A DNA stretch of 28,385 nucleotides from a virus. Numbering within the stretch: position 1 is the stretch's first letter; every line of letters starts with the position of its first letter. The translations under genes and the position numbers were made by a program. Location: IMG/VR virus record IMGVR_UViG_3300034096_000988, positions 1 through 28,385 of that record; one strand, written 5' to 3'. The notes under the pieces are model-generated. The model saw nothing but the letters and a program-made list of their open reading frames with translations, ran no database searches and had not been told where the DNA came from. Of this stretch, positions 1 through 13,604 are shown in pieces.

Positions 1-829
1 ACTTGTAGCAAGACCCGCAACGATTCGGCAAAATAGTCGCGCCAAACTTCGCCCGGTTGTTTTTATGATGAACGCCCCGGTATCGAATCGGCGTCATGCG
101 GCTCTGAATTTTTGCCAAAAGACCCGGGTTGAATCCCAATATGGTTCGGTAGCTGTCAATCTCGTTTTTTAAAAGCTCGGTATGGACTTTGATTCCTGGC
201 ACCATGCCCTCGAAAGTTTCAGCTCCGGCCCGGTGCATTTCGATTGCGTCCGAATACCCATAGTCGAACGAAACTTCCGCCGCCTCTTCGGTGGTCATGA
301 TGCCCATTGCATAAGAGCCAGCCCCGATCCTAGTCCCGTAGTCGATCATAAGACCCAAAATCACTTGGTTCTTTGCTGGATTCTCGACCCAAGCTTGCGG
401 CCCCAATTTCACGGACAGCACGGACATTTTGACGCCAAGCTCCCCAGCCACACTTCGCGCCGCCTTAATTTCCTCCGGGTAGGCTGGATTAATCCCTGAT
501 ACGTTGAAAAGCTCGGTGGATATGCCTTGCTGAACCATCTTGATAGCAACGGCCGTCGAGTCTTTTCCGCCTGAGAAGGCGACAAGCCCCCGATCCTGAC
601 TGACTTCGCGCCTGACAATAACCGGCTCTTCAACCCTGGCGATTTCTGGCGCTTTTCCCTGGTACAGTTCTTTAATTATGGGCATTCCGTTGGCTGGAAG
701 CCTTGCCACAATTGGCCTTAGCGGGTTGTGCGCTGCAATCCTGAATAATTGCGCCGCAAACCCGCCAACCTCCCCGGTCGCATAGCTGCCTAGGTCAATT
801 GATTTCTTCGACTTCTGGCTCGTCTTCAT
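1..829 (-). CDS. PAPS-reductase-like PP-loop protein, partial (runs off left edge)
   Basis: The reading frame is open from the ATG at 829 to the window edge, giving at least 276 residues, so the C-terminus is missing. A PP-loop, SGGKDST, lies at about residues 86-92 and is the ATP-binding signature of the PAPS reductase/DndC/ATP-sulfurylase-like superfamily. The visible end holds a CGSC motif, which could bind metal or act in redox chemistry. The start overlaps the 3' end of the ParB/methyltransferase gene by 35 bp, and a GAGGA-like ribosome site lies about 14 nt upstream, so the two genes are probably translationally coupled. Phages often carry such genes near the terminase, with an unknown substrate. 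Sulfur assimilation, DNA thiolation and nucleotide modification are all possible. The family is clear; the role is inference. Confidence 0.8.
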   Translation of the reverse strand, partial: MKTSQKSKKSIDLGSYATGEVGGFAAQLFRIAAHNPLRPIVARLPANGMPIIKELYQGKAPEIARVEEPVIVRREVSQDRGLVAFSGGKDSTAVAIKMVQQGISTELFNVSGINPAYPEEIKAARSVAGELGVKMSVLSVKLGPQAWVENPAKNQVILGLMIDYGTRIGAGSYAMGIMTTEEAAEVSFDYGYSDAIEMHRAGAETFEGMVPGIKVHTELLKNEIDSYRTILGFNPGLLAKIQSRMTPIRYRGVHHKNNRAKFGATILPNRCGSCYK

Positions 830-2180
830 AGTCTGCAAAGCATTCCTCGTTGACCTCGACAGTTCCGCAAGCCTTTGAAGCTTCCGCCCCCGATCCTTTG
901 ACGAAAACAAGCACGTTTTGGTGGGTTTTGCCGATCTTGCGCCCTGCGCTGAAGGTTCGCCCCGCCCGGATTGGCAAGGTGCCAACTGCTGTAACCAGAA
1001 TAATCTCGTTGTAATATTCAAGCCCCGCATCAACAAAGGCCTGAATGGTGTCGCCGACAAAATTCAGATAAGCCCCGGTCTTTTTGTCCCTGACCTCGCC
1101 CACGACAAAACAAGCGAACCGGTTGGGCTTCAATCGCTTGCAAGCTTTCGCGATGATGTCGCTATAGGCGTCCCGAAACTCGCTATATTCAAGGGTTGAC
1201 AGGTCTTGCGGGTCATCGCTGTAAACCTCAAGGTCAGCATAGGGCGGGCAGCTGAAAACCAAGTCGGCGTCGATATCGTGGCAAGTTTTGTCAATGCCCC
1301 GGCTATCGCCGCAAATCCAAGCCGGGTGCGGCTCGTTGGCGGTGCATGATGCCTCGGCTTGCTCCCGGTTCGCCTCTACCTGCTCTGGCCTCAGCTCATG
1401 GCCGACATACTGGCGGTTTAGCTTGGCTGCCACGATCCCGCGCACCGATCCGCCCGCAAAGGGGTCAAGCACCATGCCGCCCTCAGGACTGAACCACCGA
1501 TAAATGATTTCGCATAGCACCGGGTCAAATATTGAAGTCCCGGTTAAGCTTCCGGCTTTCTCGTTTACGGTCTTGGAAAACTTCAGCAAGTTCTCTGTTC
1601 TGCCGTTGCCGCTATCGATCCCCATGGAAAGCCACCCGCGCTTTCGATCCTGCCACCATCCGTCCCGCGCATTAAGCACGGAAAACGGCGGAACCAAGAA
1701 TTTTTCTGACAGGCTTCCTTTGCTGTCGCTGGTACTGCCTTCGCTTCCCTCTTCGCCATCGTCGCCAAAAGCGCCGTCAAGCAATCCATCAAGCTCGTCT
1801 GCAGAAAACCCCAGCAAATCCAAATCAAACCCGTCCTCGCTCAGTTCCTCTATTTCGATTTGCAGCATGTCAAAGTCCCACCCGGCATTTAATGCCAACT
1901 TATTGTCAGCGATGATATAAGCCCGCTTTTGCGACTCGGTAAAATGCGCCAAATCAATCGTGGGAACCTCTTTGATACCAAGCTTTTTAGCTGCCAAGAG
2001 CCGCCCATGGCCCGCAATGACTCCGCTACTGCCATCTGTAAGAATGGGATTTGTGAACCCAAACTCCTTGATGCTGGCCGCGATTTGCGCCACCTGATCC
2101 TCGCTATGGGTGCGGCTGTTCCTGGCGTATGGAATCAAGTCGTCGGTGCTGCGCTGGATAATCTCAAGCTCTTTTTTCAT
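795..2180 (-). CDS. ParB-like N-terminal domain fused to DNA N4/N6 methyltransferase
   Basis: This 461-residue protein has a ParB/sulfiredoxin-like domain at residues 10-80, including the GHGRLLAAKKLG motif at 57-68. An acidic Ser/Gly-rich linker at about 130-158 follows, then a methyltransferase domain. In the second domain DPFAGGS at 239-245 matches the AdoMet-binding FxGxG motif, and SCPPYADLEVYS at 310-321 matches catalytic motif IV (xPPY). Motif I preceding motif IV fits the alpha or gamma order. The likely reaction is methylation of adenine N6 or cytosine N4 in phage DNA, for restriction avoidance or packaging. It overlaps the zinc-finger gene upstream by 4 bp (ATGA) and the PAPS-reductase-like gene downstream by 35 bp, in one late-type operon. 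The target site cannot be read from the sequence. Confidence 0.85.
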   Translation of the reverse strand: MKKELEIIQRSTDDLIPYARNSRTHSEDQVAQIAASIKEFGFTNPILTDGSSGVIAGHGRLLAAKKLGIKEVPTIDLAHFTESQKRAYIIADNKLALNAGWDFDMLQIEIEELSEDGFDLDLLGFSADELDGLLDGAFGDDGEEGSEGSTSDSKGSLSEKFLVPPFSVLNARDGWWQDRKRGWLSMGIDSGNGRTENLLKFSKTVNEKAGSLTGTSIFDPVLCEIIYRWFSPEGGMVLDPFAGGSVRGIVAAKLNRQYVGHELRPEQVEANREQAEASCTANEPHPAWICGDSRGIDKTCHDIDADLVFSCPPYADLEVYSDDPQDLSTLEYSEFRDAYSDIIAKACKRLKPNRFACFVVGEVRDKKTGAYLNFVGDTIQAFVDAGLEYYNEIILVTAVGTLPIRAGRTFSAGRKIGKTHQNVLVFVKGSGAEASKACGTVEVNEECFADYEDEPEVEEIN

Positions 2181-5879: not shown

Positions 5880-5977
5880 AAATCCCCCCGCTTAGAAAAT
5901 GTAAAAATAATCGGCCAACAAGGCCCGTTTGGCCCCTGGCCTATGCCATTGCATAGCCTTGGTTGCGTAAACCGCGT

Positions 5978-6436
5978 CTATGGGTCGATTTCTTGCGAAT
6001 TTCGATTGTTTTGCAGTAAAGCCTTTTTGATTTCCGCCAGATTGGCTGAAACTGTCGCTTTGCTGGCCTTTGGTTTTGGTAGTCTTTGCTGGTCTGTTTT
6101 GTAAGCCGCCCCGCGATGCTCCCAACTCCCTCTGCTTGCCGCTAGAAACTCCGCGATTGATGGTGGCCAATCCCGATCCTGCCTGACCGCTCTTATGCCG
6201 TGCCTGATCTGCTCCTTGGTGAGATTTGAAAGAGCGTCTGACCATTCCATCATTGCCAGCTCTAGGTTCGTCTCGTCGCCTATTTGCCTGTCCCATCTAA
6301 CCCCCCAAATTGCTCGGAATCGTACAAATAACGCTGCTGTCAGCTTCCGGGTTAGTCCATTCTTCGGCCATGATCTCGTTAATTCTGGCTCCGACGCCTT
6401 TAGCGCCTGACCTGCTATTGCTGCCACTTGCCGCAC
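5978..6436 (-). CDS. Replication protein P-like helicase loader
   Basis: A 152-residue protein. The block FRAIWGVRWDRQIGDE, then LTKEQIRHGIRAV and DWPPSIAEFLA, matches short phage replication proteins of the lambda P type, which bring the host DnaB helicase to the origin. The start is GTG at 6436: a full AGGAGGT lies 5 nt upstream, inside the coding region of the preceding initiator gene. The two genes therefore share about 140 bp in different frames, and the recognised part of this protein begins near residue 30, so the overlap mainly encodes a variable N-terminus. About 98 bp without a supported gene follow the stop. Confidence 0.8.
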   Translation of the reverse strand: MRQVAAIAGQALKASEPELTRSWPKNGLTRKLTAALFVRFRAIWGVRWDRQIGDETNLELAMMEWSDALSNLTKEQIRHGIRAVRQDRDWPPSIAEFLAASRGSWEHRGAAYKTDQQRLPKPKASKATVSANLAEIKKALLQNNRNSQEIDP

Positions 6437-7154
6437 TTGTCACCTCCTGAATCCACTCGGCTTTGAAGCCCTGCCAGTTTCGTTCGATTGAAATTGTCAC
6501 CGCCTGGGTGATAGGAATGCCCGCTTTGAGGCTTTCGCGCTGAAAGCCATCAAGAGCGGTTTTTGTTATGGGTGCCTCCTTGCTTTTCCGGTGCCGGATA
6601 AAATCCGTCGCTAGATTTCCGTCAATGCCGTATTCGGCCAACAGAGCCAAATCAGGCTTTGGTTTTTCTTTTTGGTATTTTTTCTTTTCTATTTCTGTAT
6701 CTGTATCTGTATCTGTATCTTTATGGTTGAAAATTCGTTGATCGTTCGTGTCCGATTCGTTTACGATTCGTTTACGATTCGTTGCGGATTCGTTTAACGA
6801 TTCGTTCGTTTTTTCGGATTTTTTGGCCTTTTTGGCTTCCGCCGCCGCTTTTCCGGCTGCTGATTGCTTTTCAAGCCTTTCGTTTACAACTTCAAGGTCA
6901 CGATCAATTCGAGGGTGCCGCCATTCCGTTTCCGAAACGATGAAATATTCTTTTAGGCTCCGTTCAAGATTCGTCCACGATTCGTTATCGACTCGTGCAA
7001 TTCTCGCTAACCTTTCGCGGTTGTTTGGTAATGGCTTCCCTCGCTGCCAGTAGTTAAAGATTAAGAGCAAATAAGCCCCGTGTTCCTCGGTGGTTAAATG
7101 CGCCGTGTCGGCTAGGTAGTCAGCTATGTAAAGCTGTATATATGGCAGCGCCAT
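6297..7154 (-). CDS. DUF1376 replication initiator-like protein (lambda O position)
   Basis: A 285-residue protein. The N-terminal domain, MALPYIQLYIADYLADTAHLTTEEHGAYLLL in outline, is typical of DUF1376/YdaU phage proteins and has a winged-helix-like character. A low-complexity linker of Lys/Glu, repeated NES/NDQ residues and a DT repeat lies at about 100-155, followed by a conserved C-terminal WQGFKAEW region. It sits between cro and the P-like gene, which is the lambda O position, so origin recognition is likely. The linker DNA contains 11-bp-phased repeats that may be the origin. Its ATG follows GGCGGG and starts 1 bp after the cro-like stop. Confidence 0.8.
   Translation of the reverse strand: MALPYIQLYIADYLADTAHLTTEEHGAYLLLIFNYWQRGKPLPNNRERLARIARVDNESWTNLERSLKEYFIVSETEWRHPRIDRDLEVVNERLEKQSAAGKAAAEAKKAKKSEKTNESLNESATNRKRIVNESDTNDQRIFNHKDTDTDTDTEIEKKKYQKEKPKPDLALLAEYGIDGNLATDFIRHRKSKEAPITKTALDGFQRESLKAGIPITQAVTISIERNWQGFKAEWIQEVTSAASGSNSRSGAKGVGARINEIMAEEWTNPEADSSVICTIPSNLGG
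6732..6997. repeat. Iteron clusters, likely replication origin
   Basis: GATTCGTT repeats begin at 6754, 6765, 6776, 6787 and 6799, and related copies at 6968 (GATTCGTC), 6979 (GATTCGTT) and 6990 (GACTCGTG). A degenerate copy, AATTCGTT, is at 6732. Spacing is 11-12 bp, about one helical turn. On the downstream side, in the gene's reading direction, 6655-6725 is rich in T runs on the plus strand and could melt easily. Lambda ori has the same order inside gene O: iterons and then an AT-rich stretch. Confidence 0.65.
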
Positions 7155-7155
7155 G

Positions 7156-7392
7156 TCAACCCGCCTTTGGGTTCCCCGGCTTGTATTCGGGGATTCCCTG
7201 GAACAATGGCAGCACCTCGGCCGGGTGAACTTGCCAGCCGGTTTGCTCGCATAAATTCCGGCATAATTCCGGGCTTGGACTTCGGTGGCCGTTGACGATC
7301 TGCTTTAAATAGACCTTTTTGGTGCCGGAACTTTCGGCCCATTCTTTAAACTTGTCTTTCGGCAAAGTCGCCGCGTATTCTCTGATGTTCAT
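7156..7392 (-). CDS. Cro-like HTH regulator (YdaS type)
   Basis: A 78-residue protein. The segment from KDKFKEWAESSGTKKVYLKQ to residue 55 has a helix-turn-helix resembling YdaS-like Cro proteins. It is divergent from the S24-fold repressor across a 124-bp intergenic region with two operators, so it probably opposes the repressor and commits the phage to lysis. AAAGGA lies 6 nt before its ATG. It is the first gene of the rightward-equivalent operon containing the replication genes. Confidence 0.8.
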   Translation of the reverse strand: MNIREYAATLPKDKFKEWAESSGTKKVYLKQIVNGHRSPSPELCRNLCEQTGWQVHPAEVLPLFQGIPEYKPGNPKAG

Positions 7393-7516: not shown

Positions 7517-8164
7517 ATGGACATTGCACGCATTAGATTTCAGAATTTAACCGGCTTGCTGAAGAGGTACAGAACTCAAACAGATTTCGCCACCGCTGTT
7601 GATACGGCCCCGGCTTACATAAGCCAGCTAATATCCGCAAGTCGAAAAAAAGACGGTAAACGCGGGGTCGGAAACGACTTTGCAAGAAAAATTGAGCGTC
7701 AGCTTAATTTGCCGTATGGGTGGATGGACGCCGCGCATAATGAACCAAAGGAACAAAGCAACGTGCAGCGCCTAACTTTTGCCGGTGGGAAGGTTCCGGT
7801 TTTACCCTGGGAAGCTGCCAAACTAAACCCTCCATCATCTGCCATGAAATCAGAAACTACTGAATGGATACAAACTGGCGGTAACTATTCCGCTGAAACT
7901 TACGCGTTGAGAGTTGAGGGCGACGCAATGTCGCCAGACTTCCCGTCCGGGACAGTCATTATTGTGGATCCGTTGGCCCAATATAAGCCAGAAAGCTTTG
8001 TCATCGTACAAGATGGCGAAAGCGTCCAGTTCAAGCAATTGATACAGGACGGACTTGATTTATATCTGAAGCCGTGCAACCCGCAATATCCTATAAAACC
8101 ACTCGGCACCGGAAATATAGTCGGCGTCGTTTGCGAATCGATACAATTCAGGCGCTTAATCTAG
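7517..8164 (+). CDS. CI-like repressor, LexA/S24 fold without catalytic Ser
   Basis: A 215-residue protein. An N-terminal helix-turn-helix covers about residues 8-68 (QTDFATAVDTAPAYISQLIS), then a linker and a C-terminal S24 domain. The canonical nucleophile motif GDSM is GDAM here (residues 135-138), with Ala137 in the Ser position, while the general-base Lys is retained in QFKQL (Lys173). An Ala-Gly pair at 89-90 in the hinge resembles a self-cleavage site. It should hold lysogeny by binding TAGC-N5-GCTA operators, but RecA-stimulated self-cleavage looks disabled. Related phage repressors with GDAM exist, so this is probably stable rather than a mutation. A terminator follows. Confidence 0.88.
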   Translation: MDIARIRFQNLTGLLKRYRTQTDFATAVDTAPAYISQLISASRKKDGKRGVGNDFARKIERQLNLPYGWMDAAHNEPKEQSNVQRLTFAGGKVPVLPWEAAKLNPPSSAMKSETTEWIQTGGNYSAETYALRVEGDAMSPDFPSGTVIIVDPLAQYKPESFVIVQDGESVQFKQLIQDGLDLYLKPCNPQYPIKPLGTGNIVGVVCESIQFRRLI

Positions 8165-8429: not shown

Positions 8430-9413
8430 ATGGCTCACGAAATCACAATAAAAGCAAACGGCACAGCAGAAATGGCCTTTACCGGCAAAACCCCATGGCA
8501 CGGACTTGGCCAAAACATCGACCCGAACGCATCCATTTATGAATGGGTTCAGGCTGCGGGCTTGAACTGGTCAATTGAGCGCAGCCCGGTTCAGTATATG
8601 AATGGCGAAATGCATACCATGACAGGCCGCGACGTTCTGTATCGCTCAGACAATAATGAAGCCCTGAGCGTTGTAAGCTCAAGATACCAAATCGTTCAGC
8701 CTTATGATGTGCTGGAATTCTTCAGGGATTTGGTTGAAACCAAGGGCTTCCAAATCGAAACAGCCGGGTCGCTATTCGGTGGCTCAAGAATTTGGGCGTT
8801 AGCGCGAATCAATCGCGACGAGGTGATAAAAGACGGCGATAAAGTTTCAGGTTATTTGCTGCTTTCTACCAGCTGCGACGGCGGATTGGCCACCAGCGCT
8901 CAGTTCACTAGCGTTAGGGTTGTATGCAATAACACCCTGAGAATGGCGAACCACGATACCGATCAAAAAGGCTTTACCAAAATCTCGATCCCGCACAGCA
9001 CTAAATTCGATCCAGTCGCCGTCAAAATCGCCCTGGGGGTTGCCGACAAGCGCTTCGACACATTCATTTCTGAAGGCCGCAAGTTGGCCGAAAAAATGAT
9101 CTCAGACGACGCCAAAGACGACTTTTTGAAGCTGCTCCTAAAAGACACAACGGACGCCCAAGACATCAGCAAAACCAAGGCCTATCAAACCATCAACAAC
9201 CTATATAACGGCGCTGGCATGGGCTCATTAATGGAAAGCGCTGACGGCACCGCATGGGGTTTGCTGAATGCAGTTACCCAATATGTTGACCATGAAAAGC
9301 CCGCAAAATCGACTGACTACCGCCTTGATGCCGCTTGGTACGGCTCTGGCGCAAAACTGAAAGACCGCGCCTTTGAACTGGCTTTGGCGATGCCTGCCAA
9401 AAAGTTCTTTTAA
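8430..9413 (+). CDS. DUF932 phage/plasmid-like protein
   Basis: A 327-residue protein of the DUF932 family: the N-terminus contains GKTPWHGLGQNIDPNASIYEW, and SVVSSRYQIVQPYDVLEFF and VRVVCNNTLRMA follow, all hallmark segments. The family is frequent in phages and plasmids and its molecular function is unknown. AGGA lies 10 nt before the ATG. The gene is flanked by its own repressor-controlled promoter and a strong terminator, so it is a one-gene early unit, suggesting a role at infection or induction that is harmful in a lysogen. That role is inference. Confidence 0.9.
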   Translation: MAHEITIKANGTAEMAFTGKTPWHGLGQNIDPNASIYEWVQAAGLNWSIERSPVQYMNGEMHTMTGRDVLYRSDNNEALSVVSSRYQIVQPYDVLEFFRDLVETKGFQIETAGSLFGGSRIWALARINRDEVIKDGDKVSGYLLLSTSCDGGLATSAQFTSVRVVCNNTLRMANHDTDQKGFTKISIPHSTKFDPVAVKIALGVADKRFDTFISEGRKLAEKMISDDAKDDFLKLLLKDTTDAQDISKTKAYQTINNLYNGAGMGSLMESADGTAWGLLNAVTQYVDHEKPAKSTDYRLDAAWYGSGAKLKDRAFELALAMPAKKFF

Positions 9414-9432
9414 CCGCTGTACCTCCAACTCA

Positions 9433-9456
9433 ACCGGGCTTCGGCCCGGTCTTTTT
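9433..9456 (+). terminator. Strong rho-independent terminator after the DUF932 gene
   Basis: ACCGGGC (9433-9439) and GCCCGGT (9444-9450) form a 7-bp stem closed by a TTCG tetraloop, followed by CTTTTT. It starts 20 bp after the stop codon. The genes that follow have no clear promoter before 10499, so they rely on read-through, antitermination or an unseen promoter. Confidence 0.85.
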
Positions 9457-9471
9457 AAGGGTATTTGAGAA

Positions 9472-9603
9472 ATGAAAAATAACATCTTTGTATCGGCTGA
9501 CGAAAGCTTCAAAACAGCCGCCGCCTATGTGGCAATCATGGCCGCAATTGCCGTCGGCGCAATCGCTATTAACTTTTACATTCTTTATAAGTTCATTATT
9601 TAA
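9472..9603 (+). CDS. Small membrane protein (43 aa)
   Basis: A short frame beginning MKNNIFVSADESFKTAAAYV with one hydrophobic segment of about 24 residues (AYVAIMAAIAVGAIAINFYI) and ending KFII. A GAGA ribosome site precedes the ATG and the next gene starts 12 bp after the stop. Single-span proteins of this size are common in early phage operons, where some cause superinfection exclusion. No family was recognised. Confidence 0.5.
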   Translation: MKNNIFVSADESFKTAAAYVAIMAAIAVGAIAINFYILYKFII

Positions 9604-9615
9604 AAAGGGGGTTTT

Positions 9616-9915
9616 ATGTATGTGCACGAAAAAAAGGCCTTTTCAATGATCTGCCCTGAAATGTCATCCGTCACTACTGACGCTAGCTTTATTAAGTGCA
9701 AAGGCTCTGAGTGCATGGCTTGGCGGTTTGACAACCCTCCATTAAGGCGAATTGTCCCGGCTGAAGGGGACTATAAATTCGCGCCACCTAGCTATGCCTT
9801 TGACCTTGTTACTGCTGAAAATAACGAAGATGGTGACGGCGATATATGGGTTGAAAACAATGAAAGCCTTAACGAAAGACGATTGGGCTTTTGCGGCCTT
9901 GCGGGGAAGCCATGA
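9616..9915 (+). CDS. Hypothetical phage protein with CKGSECMAWR motif
   Basis: A 99-residue protein with CPEMS near the N-terminus, CKGSECMAWR at about 29-38 and a C-terminal GFCGLAGKP. These Cys-containing blocks recur in small phage early proteins of unknown role and may bind zinc. A GGGGG ribosome site lies upstream. Its stop overlaps the start of the next gene (ATGA at 9912-9915). Confidence 0.7.
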   Translation: MYVHEKKAFSMICPEMSSVTTDASFIKCKGSECMAWRFDNPPLRRIVPAEGDYKFAPPSYAFDLVTAENNEDGDGDIWVENNESLNERRLGFCGLAGKP

Positions 9916-10181
9916 ACAGCATTGAGGCTAAAAAATTAGCTGACCAAATGATTTTTGGAGTGCTTAAAGACAACCCAAAATCAACAGCCCTTGAAATATT
10001 CAACAAGCTGAAACCAACCGTCAAAAACAAAGGGTCATTGAAAGCCGCTCTACCTGAAAGCGACCAAACGATAAGGGAACGATTAAGGGTCGCGGAAAAA
10101 AATGGTTATGTTTTAGGGGAAGTTCGGCAAAAAACGGTTTTAACAGAATGGTCATTAACAGAAGAGGGGCACCAACCATGA
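9912..10181 (+). CDS. Small winged-helix-like protein
   Basis: An 89-residue protein beginning MNSIEAKKLADQM. The middle, STALEIFNKLKP then TIRERLRVAEKNGYV, and the end, VLTEWSLTEEGHQP, resemble a winged-helix DNA-binding domain. The ATG at 9912 is chosen over an upstream start at 9891 because GGGGAAG precedes it and it makes an ATGA junction with the previous stop. An early regulatory role is possible but unproven. Confidence 0.6.
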   Translation: MNSIEAKKLADQMIFGVLKDNPKSTALEIFNKLKPTVKNKGSLKAALPESDQTIRERLRVAEKNGYVLGEVRQKTVLTEWSLTEEGHQP

Positions 10182-10477
10182 TCTGCTTTGTATCAAACCA
10201 AGAACGCAACCATCAAGCCGATGTTGAAGCTAGTGAGCGAAGAGCTGAAGCGCTGGCCGCGAAAGCTGCCGAAATGATGAAGCCCGACAAGCTTTATTAC
10301 CCTTATCAGGGGTTTATATTGCTGTGCATGATTCTCGAAAGCCAAGACAGCCAGCTTGACGATATCGTTAAAGCCATCCTGGACAAAAGCGCTGCTGACT
10401 TGCTTGATTCTATGCTACACAACAAGGCCGCCGAACTAGCAGAAAACTATATAAAAAGCCATAGCGGCCATTATTAG
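10178..10477 (+). CDS. Hypothetical early protein
   Basis: A 99-residue protein from the ATG at 10178, which forms an ATGA junction with the preceding stop. The N-terminal half is charged and Ala-rich helix (ASERRAEALAAKAAEMM). No family was recognised. The stop is followed by an A/T-rich stretch leading into the recombination operon promoter. Confidence 0.55.
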   Translation: MICFVSNQERNHQADVEASERRAEALAAKAAEMMKPDKLYYPYQGFILLCMILESQDSQLDDIVKAILDKSAADLLDSMLHNKAAELAENYIKSHSGHY

Positions 10478-10498
10478 CAATTTTTTTTACAAAAATAT

Positions 10499-10538
10499 TA
10501 GCAAAACGCTATTAATCGATTTAGCAAGGCGCTATAAT
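10499..10538 (+). promoter_or_regulatory. Promoter with paired operators for the recombination operon
   Basis: Operators TAGCAAAACGCTA (10499-10511) and TAGCAAGGCGCTA (10522-10534) start 23 bp apart. A consensus -10, TATAAT (10533-10538), overlaps the last two bases of the second operator. The -35 is poor (TATTAA, 10510-10515, 17-bp spacer). The layout and the preceding T-run plus AAAATATTAGC context closely match the promoter module at 8336, which suggests common origin. Confidence 0.65.
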
Positions 10539-10569
10539 CAGCGCCTCAGCAAAAAAAGGAAAACGCACC

Positions 10570-11361
10570 ATGCAAATAATAGAAAAGCTACCGTTTGACG
10601 AGTATTGCGCCCTGGAAGGGTACATCAATAATTCGGCGCTTAAGCTGATAAATCAAAGCCCCGCTCACTACAAGGCGTCACTTGAAGAGCCAATGGAAGA
10701 GTCAAGCGCTTTGCTTATCGGCCACGCTTCCCACACCGCCATACTTGAGCCGGAATTATTCCAGTCAAGTTATTCGGTTTTTCCTGACAACTTGACCAAG
10801 CAGACGAAAGACGGGAAGAACGAGTGGGCAAGACTTGAAGCGTTAGGGCTTCCGATCCTTAGGTTTTCGGAATGGGAAGCCGCTGTCAAGTTGTCTGCAG
10901 CTGTAAAGTATCACCCGACCGCTTCAGAGTTGCTGCAAGGCAAGAAAGAACTAACCATCTTGTCTGAGCTTCAGCAAACAAAAGTTAAGGCTCGGCTCGA
11001 CTGCCTGATTGACGGCATTATTGTTGACGTCAAGACCACTGAGGACGCAAGCCCTGAGGCCTTTAGCCGAACCATTTACAACTACGAATACCATCAACAG
11101 GCTGCATTTTACCTGGACGCCGCTAATGCCTGCGGGCTTGAAGTTGGGCAGTTCATTTTCATTGCAGTTGAAAAAAAGCCGCCCTATGCAATCGGCATTT
11201 ACCAGCTTGACGCTGACGCCATAACTGAGGGTAGAGCGCTATACAGAAAGGCTCTGAAGGCTTACGAAACCGCTGAAGCTTTCGACTATTGGCCCGGATA
11301 TTCCACCCTGATCCAAGCTATATCACTGCCCCACTGGGTAAGGAGAATTAACCATGATTAG
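10570..11361 (+). CDS. PD-(D/E)XK exonuclease, RecE C-terminal/DUF3799 type
   Basis: A 263-residue protein. The N-terminus (YINNSALKLINQSPAHYKA) and GHASHTAILEPELF are family hallmarks. Catalytic residues fit Glu133 (LSE), Asp144 (KARLDCLIDG), Asp153 and Lys155 (IIVDVKTT), with YHQQAAFYLD after them. It should resect one strand of double-stranded DNA ends, leaving ssDNA for the RecT-type annealing protein encoded two genes downstream. AAGGA precedes the ATG. It is the first gene of an operator-controlled operon. Confidence 0.9.
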   Translation: MQIIEKLPFDEYCALEGYINNSALKLINQSPAHYKASLEEPMEESSALLIGHASHTAILEPELFQSSYSVFPDNLTKQTKDGKNEWARLEALGLPILRFSEWEAAVKLSAAVKYHPTASELLQGKKELTILSELQQTKVKARLDCLIDGIIVDVKTTEDASPEAFSRTIYNYEYHQQAAFYLDAANACGLEVGQFIFIAVEKKPPYAIGIYQLDADAITEGRALYRKALKAYETAEAFDYWPGYSTLIQAISLPHWVRRINHD

Positions 11362-11527
11362 CTTTTTAATTTTTCACAACCTGGACAACGCAAACGCTGA
11401 AGCGACAAGGCTTACAAAGATGTCCGGCACATACTGGTCAACCAAGCGCCTTGAATCAAAACAATGGGTGGTAACTGACGAATACCATCCGAAAAAATCA
11501 TCAACCCAACCAAAGGAATCAAAATGA
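11354..11527 (+). CDS. Hypothetical 57-aa protein between exonuclease and RecT
   Basis: The frame begins MISFLIFHNLDNANAEATRL and is tightly packed: it overlaps the exonuclease stop by 8 bp and meets recT through ATGA at 11524-11527. An AGGAGA ribosome site lies just upstream of the ATG. The N-terminus is hydrophobic and the C-terminus Lys/Ser/Pro-rich. No family was recognised, but the packing makes it a credible gene. Confidence 0.6.
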   Translation: MISFLIFHNLDNANAEATRLTKMSGTYWSTKRLESKQWVVTDEYHPKKSSTQPKESK

Positions 11528-12642
11528 ACGCCGCTGAAATGATAAACGCCCCTAGCAACGCAATTTTGCCAGTTGCCTACCCTGACGCTGATTTTAAGCG
11601 CCTGATTGAAAAGGACGCCACCAGCGTTCCCGACATCACTTTCAACGACGGCAATTTCAGCCGCGCCGAAAGGTTAGCCAAGCTCATGGCCTCCGGTGCT
11701 GCCACCGTCCCGCGCCATCTTCGCGGCAACGTGGCCGACTGCTTTGCCATCGTGCTACAAACCTTCGCATGGGGTCTGAACAATCCCTTTGCCGTGGCCA
11801 GCAAAACCCACATGATTAATGACATCCTTTGCTATGAAGCCCAGCTTGTCAACGCCGTTATTCAATCCAGTGGGGTGATTAAGGGTCATTTTCATTATGA
11901 CTATAAGGGCGACGGCGCCACGCTCGAGTGCAGGGTAGGCGCTATCCTTTCCGGCTCAAACGAAATCACCTGGGGTGAATGGCTTTCAAATAATAGCGTA
12001 ACAGTCAGAAACTCCCCGCTCTGGAAAACCAACCCGCGCCAACAGCTTGGCTATTTGCAGGTCAAAAATTGGGCTCGATCGTTCTACCCTGGCGCTTTGC
12101 TTGGCGTCTATACGCCTGACGAGCTTTTTGACGATGTTGGCGCTGAATATGACTCGATCAAAAGCGTAGACCTTTCAACGCCCGAACATGAAGCCCTGGC
12201 GATTATTGACGAAATCAACGCCACCGGCTCAATCGATCAATTGCAGCTCTTGAAATCAAAAGCCGATTTGGTCAAGGGTGAAATCAGAAAGAGGGTGCTT
12301 GAGGCTTACAAAGCTAAGCGAAAAGCGCTGACCGCTTCCAATCAGGAACAAGCCGCCCCGGCTCAAGAGCCCGATCAACCAAAAGCTGAAGCGCTGCCCG
12401 ATGAAGAGCCCGCGACCATTGAAATCGATAACGCGGTCATCGTTGATGAAGAGCTTAACGCCATCGACCAAGATACCGGCGAAATTCTGGACGGCTATAC
12501 CGACTTAAGACTGGCCATCAGCGAGTGCGCCACCCTTAGCGACTTGGCTAGGATTTTAAAGTCAATGCCGCCTCAAGCTAAAGCCGATCTGAAAGCCGAA
12601 CTATCAGCTCAGCAAGTAAAAATCAACGAGGCTAAAAAATGA
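11524..12642 (+). CDS. recT: RecT-family ssDNA annealing protein with C-terminal extension
   Basis: A 372-residue protein. The RecT core contains VPRHLRGNVADCFAIVLQTF, NPFAVASKTHMINDILCYEA, EITWGEWL and a segment from NSPLWKTNPRQQLGYLQVKN. It binds ssDNA made by the exonuclease and anneals homologous strands. After about residue 245 there is an extension: a helical Lys/Arg-rich stretch, an acidic Pro/Ala linker, and a short helical end (DLARILKSMPPQAKADLKAE) that could contact partners. ATGA junctions join it to genes on both sides. Confidence 0.9.
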   Translation: MNAAEMINAPSNAILPVAYPDADFKRLIEKDATSVPDITFNDGNFSRAERLAKLMASGAATVPRHLRGNVADCFAIVLQTFAWGLNNPFAVASKTHMINDILCYEAQLVNAVIQSSGVIKGHFHYDYKGDGATLECRVGAILSGSNEITWGEWLSNNSVTVRNSPLWKTNPRQQLGYLQVKNWARSFYPGALLGVYTPDELFDDVGAEYDSIKSVDLSTPEHEALAIIDEINATGSIDQLQLLKSKADLVKGEIRKRVLEAYKAKRKALTASNQEQAAPAQEPDQPKAEALPDEEPATIEIDNAVIVDEELNAIDQDTGEILDGYTDLRLAISECATLSDLARILKSMPPQAKADLKAELSAQQVKINEAKK

Positions 12643-13604
12643 CCACAAACACATTGCCCGAAATCATAGTCGAAATAACAGGAAAAGTTTTAACAAGCAC
12701 TTTGCCTGAATTCGCCAGCGCTGCCCGCGCATACATCGAACAAATCAACATGCTGCCATCCACCGACGAAGAGTTCGGTGAGGCTGAAGCCGTAGCCAAG
12801 GAACTTGAACGCAACGAAAAGCTTTTGGAAGAGAAAGAAGTCGAAGTTATCAACCAAACTTCTGACATATCGCAAATTATCCAAACGCTTAAGTCGGTCA
12901 AAGGCCTCATGAGGGACACCCGGCTTACGCTGACAAAGGTTGTAAAAATTAGGAAAGAGGCGATTAAAGGCGACATTCTGGAAGAGGCTAAAAATAGAGT
13001 CGCCGCCGCCCTGGCTGAAGCTGAAGAAAAAACCAAGCCAATCAAGTTACGCGGGTTTGTGGCGCTACCCCTGCTGGATGATGCCGCCAAGAACAAAAAG
13101 ACCCCTGAAAGCATCGCCGCCGCCGTTAATTCGGTTGCGAATTCAGCCGTCAAAATAATCAATTTAACCGCTGACGATGTTGCTGAAAAGCTTAAATGGT
13201 TGAAGCTCAATTACTCCGGATATTCCCACCTGTTCCCCGATCTGCAAACTGTCATTTTTAGGGATTCGGTGCTACTGGAAGAGCTTGTCACGTCGCGGGT
13301 AAATACTTACTTGATGCAGGTTGAAATTGACGAATCCAAAAAGGAAAGCGAACAAACGCCGCCAGAACCCGAAAAGCCAGCCCCGGCAAAACAGGCGTCA
13401 CCAGAACCCGCGCCAAAAGCTGAAGCCAAGCCCGCCGAAATTGCCCCCGGCAAATCTGAGCCGCCAATGTCAGAAAAGCCGACCGACGAGCAAATTGTTC
13501 AGGCTATAGCCGATTCGTTCGGGGTTGATCTGCTTGTCGCAATCGAATGGTTGCTCGACGTAGACATGGAAGCCATGAGTGCCAAGCTTTTTGAAGCCCT
13601 TTAA
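12639..13604 (+). CDS. Coiled-coil recombination-operon protein of unknown function
   Basis: A 321-residue protein. Residues 40-145 are highly charged and helical, probably coiled coil, followed by a compact region at 150-235. A Pro/Ala/Lys/Glu linker at about 240-285 precedes a short helical tail (VQAIADSFGVDLLVAIEWL). It is joined to recT by ATGA and is the last gene before a stable hairpin. Similar proteins accompany RecT systems in other phages without an assigned role; a nuclease inhibitor or annealase accessory is possible. Confidence 0.7.
   Translation: MTTNTLPEIIVEITGKVLTSTLPEFASAARAYIEQINMLPSTDEEFGEAEAVAKELERNEKLLEEKEVEVINQTSDISQIIQTLKSVKGLMRDTRLTLTKVVKIRKEAIKGDILEEAKNRVAAALAEAEEKTKPIKLRGFVALPLLDDAAKNKKTPESIAAAVNSVANSAVKIINLTADDVAEKLKWLKLNYSGYSHLFPDLQTVIFRDSVLLEELVTSRVNTYLMQVEIDESKKESEQTPPEPEKPAPAKQASPEPAPKAEAKPAEIAPGKSEPPMSEKPTDEQIVQAIADSFGVDLLVAIEWLLDVDMEAMSAKLFEAL

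Follow-up and report, generated by a model that had tools for sequence, protein, structure and literature searches.

The locus studied here raises the question of why a phage gene should carry arrays of short direct repeats within its own coding sequence. The gene (6297 to 7154, minus strand) lies in a window of 28,385 bp, by which we mean the whole stretch of viral DNA, an IMG/VR contig, that was analyzed, and encodes a protein of 285 amino acids composed of a DUF1376 domain, a linker, and an O-like C-terminal domain. An initial annotation had read the repeats as part of a likely origin of replication, arranged in the order of the lambda origin in gene O but belonging to a different initiator family. 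From the sequence comparisons described below, we consider it highly probable that the window indeed holds a replication origin inside its own initiator gene, in which the DUF1376 domain binds the iterons, an A-rich stretch opens, and theta replication starts.

The repeats themselves are clear. The main array (6754 to 6806, minus strand, in the linker-coding part of the gene and about 350 bp into it) consists of five exact copies of GATTCGTT (sense AACGAATC) that start at plus-strand positions 6754, 6765, 6776, 6787, and 6799, that is, at spacings of 11/11/11/12 bp, as first described. Two degraded copies, AATTCGTT (6732 to 6739) and CGTTCGTG (6743 to 6750), extend the array in the same 11-bp phase on the minus strand, giving seven units in phase. 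A second cluster (6968 to 6997, minus strand), nearer the gene start, contains GATTCGTC at 6968, GATTCGTT at 6979, and GACTCGTG at 6990, exactly 11 bp apart. Both clusters had been assigned to the linker-coding part; this holds for the main array, but the trio falls in the DUF1376-coding part, at codons 53 to 62 (domain residues 4 to 87). Across the whole window, only two exact plus-strand copies of GATTCGTT lie outside the two clusters, and Rfam gave no match in the window. The self-match at lag 11 reaches 29 of 33 positions, compared with a maximum of 24 over lags 8 to 25 in 100 first-order Markov windows; when the gene was shuffled among synonymous codons, none of 20,000 shuffles reached 29, and six copies of AACGAATC appeared in only 2. 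Since the 11-bp pitch runs through all three codon phases, so that the copies are read as NES, KRI, or TNR, and since no shuffle reproduced the self-match, the repeats are a DNA-level signal and not a peptide repeat.

On the 3′ side of the iterons lies a stretch of low stability, A-rich on the sense strand (6655 to 6725, minus strand; 72% AT), which is a putative unwinding element. It contains four GATACA units (as TCTGTA) at 6694 to 6717 and an A-tract, and only two other separate places in the window are less stable than the 60-bp segment from 6664, which falls within the least stable 0.35% of positions. The initial description of the iterons as followed by this stretch is accurate in the direction of the gene, on the minus strand, and not otherwise.

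DUF1376 (PF07120) is matched over its full length, with residues 4 to 87 of the initiator covering profile positions 1 to 85 of 86 (E = 1.1e-24; 87 bits against a curated cut-off of 30.1), and it is the sole Pfam match of the initiator at E values up to 0.01, at which neither the N-terminal domain of Phage_rep_O (PF04492) nor RepA_N (PF06970) was found. Among the PHROGs, the initiator matches families annotated as "primosomal protein" (E = 2.3e-63) and "replication initiation O-like" (E = 1.7e-23), and the O-like phrog_678 is matched by the C-terminal part alone. This C-terminal O-like domain (residues ∼165 to 243, encoded by 6426 to 6662, minus strand) is common to initiators with other N-terminal domains. 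The DUF1376-coding part (6894 to 7145, minus strand) is predicted, from Pfam and an AlphaFold model, to encode a winged-helix DNA-binding domain. The model is confident at residues 11 to 110 (pLDDT above 90 over most of this range) and 171 to 230, and its DUF1376 part forms a winged helix with helices at residues 10 to 16, 22 to 38, 46 to 52, and 57 to 67, a short beta element, and a long helix at 81 to 122. The linker is weakly conserved among relatives and disordered in the model (pLDDT below 50 at residues 129 to 153). Structural neighbors of the DUF1376 model, realigned from the Foldseek list, score Z values of 5.7 to 7.2, from the N-terminal domain of DnaD (5.7) to the ORC2 winged helix (7.2). 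N-terminal domains of the pSK41-type RepA_N initiators are among them (4pql, 7.1; 5kbj, 6.9), and the four entries 4pql, 5kbj, 4pt7, and 4pta together span 6.4 to 7.1, level with other winged helices; a Z of about 7 is middling and would indicate the fold and not the function. Foldseek searches of the initiator model against the PDB gave no match at E values up to 0.001, and sequence searches of solved structures with the initiator gave nothing significant. In the open-access literature, DUF1376 is only mentioned, and we found no function for it.

The neighboring genes complete a lambda-like arrangement. Directly downstream lies a P-like helicase loader gene (5978 to 6436, minus strand, GTG start; phrog_109, "P-like helicase loader," E = 2.5e-12), whose match to the Pfam family of lambda P is weak (E = 0.003) and under the curated cut-off. 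The loader gene starts within the 3′ end of the initiator gene, with an out-of-frame overlap of about 140 bp, and its GTG codon is preceded by an AGGAGGT ribosome-binding site that sits in the C-terminal coding part of the initiator. The adjacent frame, 5892 to 6296, was considered as the loader and rejected for want of any family match. Just upstream of the initiator gene is a Cro/HTH-like regulator (7156 to 7392, minus strand), and a CI-like repressor (Peptidase_S24; 7517 to 8164, plus strand) is divergent from the initiator. The order of Cro-like gene, initiator, and P-like loader is that of lambda, and the initiator family is DUF1376, a predicted winged helix, so the initial comparison with lambda stands in both its parts. 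Among relatives, the next gene encodes a P-like, DnaC/IstB-like, DnaB, or DnaA-C protein; profiles built from such seeds match the downstream gene in 87 of the 141 loci with a downstream frame. Elsewhere in the window are a gene for a fusion between a ParB-like domain and a DNA methyltransferase (795 to 2180, minus strand) and a recombination block (8430 to 13604, plus strand) with genes for a DUF932 protein, an exonuclease VIII-like protein, a RecT-like annealing protein, and a RecE-like exonuclease. GC skew, proposed as a check on the origin, was rejected as evidence because in the window it merely tracks the strand of the genes.

Whether the repeats are a peculiarity of one phage can be judged from the DUF1376 family. 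At loci picked by similarity to the query, we took DUF1376 genes from three kinds of source (viral contigs, phage records, and bacterial genomes), retained 155 as nonredundant (less than 50% shared 4-mers), and compared the self-matching of each gene at every lag with shuffles that preserve the protein and codon usage. The mean z over the 155 genes is 2.09 at lag 11 and 1.51 at lag 22, 2.13 at lag 7, 1.92 at lag 14, 1.18 at lag 21, and 0.86 at lag 6, with hardly any other lag above about 0.5; since shuffling was done within the gene, regional composition might inflate these values somewhat, but it would not favor lags 7 and 11 over their neighbors. The 150 control genes taken from those loci are flat throughout, and lambda gene O, used as a positive control, yielded lags 20, 23, and 24, in agreement with its annotated iteron spacing. 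Lag 11 exceeds a z of 2 in 83 of the 155 genes, that is, not in all, and the joint signal of lag 11 with lag 5, 6, or 7 (each with z above 2) is found in 67 of the 155 DUF1376 genes versus 1.1% of 537 control genes. Both periodicities are strongest in the linker-coding region and absent from the 3′ remainder of the gene; the DUF-coding part has lag 11 only, and more weakly (z of 0.75; 10% of genes above 2.5), so that an equivalent of the window's second cluster exists in a minority of relatives.

What relatives share is a pitch and a place. The iteron words are diverse (AACGnnCGTTC, AACAGGTGTTG, ATGCGAACGCA, CCCAGTnGG-type, and others) at a constant pitch of 11 bp, and in 47% of cases their self-complementarity exceeds that of permuted columns (z above 2). 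The initial annotation had asked whether relatives keep the DNA repeats while residues drift, or instead keep the Asn-Glu-Ser residues with scrambled codons; relatives hold pitch and place and retain neither the letters of the iterons nor Asn-Glu-Ser. Where the window has its A-rich stretch, relatives carry short repeats of 7 bp (AACCAAT, the commonest unit), 6 bp (GATACA, the unit in the clade to which the window and YdaU belong), or 5 bp (AAAGT-type), with sense-strand contents of 53% A, 31% C, and 5% G. Both arrays occur together in 57 genes, and in every one of these the short A/C-rich repeat follows the iterons on their 3′ side, at a median of 48 bp. This recurrence of the layout across the DUF1376 family, with 11-bp-phased repeats kept at the same place, makes it most likely the replication start of these phages and supports the likely-origin reading.

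The iterons appear to belong with the N-terminal domain. A scan for the C-terminal domain retrieved initiators whose N terminus is of another type (Phage_rep_O or HTH_36, for example). In 18 nonredundant initiators of this kind, the iteron pitch is mainly 22 to 23 bp, sometimes 17 or 21 bp; the 11-bp signal is slight and the 7-bp signal absent. A nearest-neighbor test, which addresses near relatives, showed that iteron similarity tracks DUF1376 identity (z of 6.7) and not C-terminal identity (z of 1.4). This link drops to a z of 2.3 when pairs are restricted to less than 60% identity, and the global correlation between iteron similarity and domain identity is weak, near zero; because of this fading, the sequence comparisons are merely suggestive of coevolution between the iterons and the DUF1376 domain.

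When viral contigs were searched by the array pattern alone, 53 contigs with arrays were recovered, and 44 of these arrays lie in reading frames of DUF1376 (35) or Lin1244_N (PF14297; 9, two of them assigned by profile scan and the others by evident similarity), the remaining 9 lying in unassigned genes or having no clear assignment. Four of these 9 contigs carry the exact window-type array outside DUF1376 frames, so the letters of the iterons cannot by themselves identify the initiator; three copies of AACGAATC in exact window-type arrays occur, for instance, in the linkers of other, unassigned replication-like proteins in L320, L322, and L323. In 19 nonredundant Lin1244_N genes, the lag-11 signal (z of 3.84; 89% above 2.5) is stronger than in DUF1376, a figure that is partly circular because some of these genes were chosen by the array itself, and 5-bp AAAGT-type A-rich repeats stand behind the 11-bp arrays. 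By these sequence features, Lin1244_N would be a second winged-helix-type family with such an origin layout. Phage initiators of this family with 11-bp AACGnnCGTTC-type arrays are found in viral contigs L335, L338, L345, L348, L351, L355, L356, L357, L364, and L373 to L432. Multiblock AACGnnCGTTC arrays also occur in L342 (near 4150) and L369 (near 11800) in no clear long reading frame, and these may be a dispersed repeat that has nothing to do with origins.

For the window, we infer the following sequence of events. The DUF1376 winged helix would bind the iterons, whose 11-bp phase gives each helical turn one site and keeps all sites on one face of the DNA, with a few additional sites in the part of the gene that encodes the domain itself. 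The resulting nucleoprotein assembly would strain the adjoining GATACA/A-tract stretch and cause it to open. The O-like C-terminal domain would then recruit the P-like loader together with the host helicase, which would be passed onto the opened strands so that theta replication could begin.

The main rival to this origin is an operator, through which the DUF1376 protein, bound to the array, would regulate how its own gene is transcribed or translated, with the true origin lying elsewhere. Plasmid and phage initiators often autoregulate, and the second cluster is the closer of the two to the gene start; an operator could, moreover, coexist with an origin. As the sole function of the array we regard it as unlikely, because the main array is well inside the gene and because an operator needs no short-period A-rich element, yet such an element follows the iterons in fixed order in every gene that has both. 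The array also occupies the same place as the mapped origins in lambda O (PMC7466680) and pSK41 rep (PMC5703833). Still less probable is a site for some other protein, whether for partition by the ParB-like protein, for a host factor (DnaA, for instance), or for recombination: the window does encode a ParB-like/methyltransferase fusion, but in many contigs arrays of this pitch go with genes of DUF1376 or Lin1244_N, and the similarity of the iterons follows that of the DUF1376 domain. That the repeats merely serve the protein, with protein-level selection or replication slippage having produced a low-complexity linker of Asn, Glu, Ser, Thr, and Lys, would suit the disorder of the linker in the model and the simple Asp-Thr repeat encoded by the GATACA run, but it is rejected with near certainty by the codon phases and the loss of signal upon synonymous shuffling, by pitches of 11 and 7 bp that are not multiples of 3, and by relatives with other letters at the same pitch, which slippage of one unit would not yield.

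Reading the array as an origin gives a large family of "unknown function," DUF1376, a testable function as an origin-binding initiator. It also provides a sequence rule for locating origins in uncultured phages, namely, a winged-helix gene whose linker holds 11-bp iterons followed by 5-, 6-, or 7-bp A-rich repeats, and the occurrence of 11-bp (DUF1376) and 22- to 23-bp (other N-terminal domains) pitches on the same C terminus makes the modularity of these initiators directly testable. More broadly, DUF1376 and Lin1244_N initiators may form a widespread phage replicon superfamily with a shared origin code of in-gene 11-bp iterons plus a 5-, 6-, or 7-bp A-rich repeat, in which the short repeat would serve for unwinding and be recognized in single-stranded form by the initiator or the loader, and the iteron sequence would coevolve with the winged helix at a fixed pitch; we consider the case for this proposal evenly balanced.

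How the window relates to known systems can be seen from four comparisons. The E. coli K-12 Rac gene ydaU (1421119 to 1421976; positions 120 to 977 of L084) is a DUF1376 gene, and, as in the window, the DUF1376 protein YdaU stands beside a helicase-loader-type gene, ATP-binding and DnaC-like in K-12 and P-like in SA53. The repeats of K-12 ydaU (AACAGGTGTTC-type at 11 to 12 bp, then GATACAGATA) are degraded and their signal weak (z of 3.0 at lag 23 and 1.3 at lag 11), too degraded for the gene to be used as a strong example of the family. An active but repressed origin, oriJ, has been reported in Rac (PMC3945230); we found no exact position for it in the open-access literature and predict ydaU as a candidate location. 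The Phage_rep_O and HTH_36 initiators (L011, L078, and others) share with the window the C-terminal domain and iterons in the linker-coding part, and a Mannheimia phage example also has a P gene downstream; they differ in their longer, often palindromic iterons at a pitch of 17 to 23 bp.

The other two comparisons are with lambda and pSK41. The lambda origin lies in the middle of gene O, with iterons that adjoin an AT-rich stretch (PMC7466680), and the window resembles it in that direct repeats are encoded between the N- and C-terminal domain parts of the initiator gene, are followed in the gene direction by an AT-rich stretch, and have a helicase loader gene directly downstream. Lambda, however, has four 18-bp iterons 20 to 24 bp apart and the N-terminal domain proper to O, whereas the window has words of 8 to 10 bp every 11 bp, a DUF1376 N-terminal domain, and short-period repeats in its AT-rich part; it thus has neither the Phage_rep_O domain nor the ∼18-bp iterons at 20- to 24-bp spacing of the lambda O family. 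In pSK41, the origin is central within rep and contains four boxes bound by a winged-helix N-terminal domain, and the linker that the origin encodes can be dispensed with (PMC5703833). In the window, too, the repeats are central in the gene, and the DUF1376 model is structurally near this N-terminal domain, at a middling Z that other winged helices equal; the window differs from RepA_N in the lack of a RepA_N Pfam match, in its phage setting with a P/DnaC/DnaB partner gene, and in its C-terminal domain. The module of the window thus resembles lambda O and pSK41 in its likely working and is a member of neither family, with a different N-terminal domain and iteron pitch, and it is best read as a lambda-like in-gene origin served by an uncharacterized winged-helix family with iterons of one helical turn.
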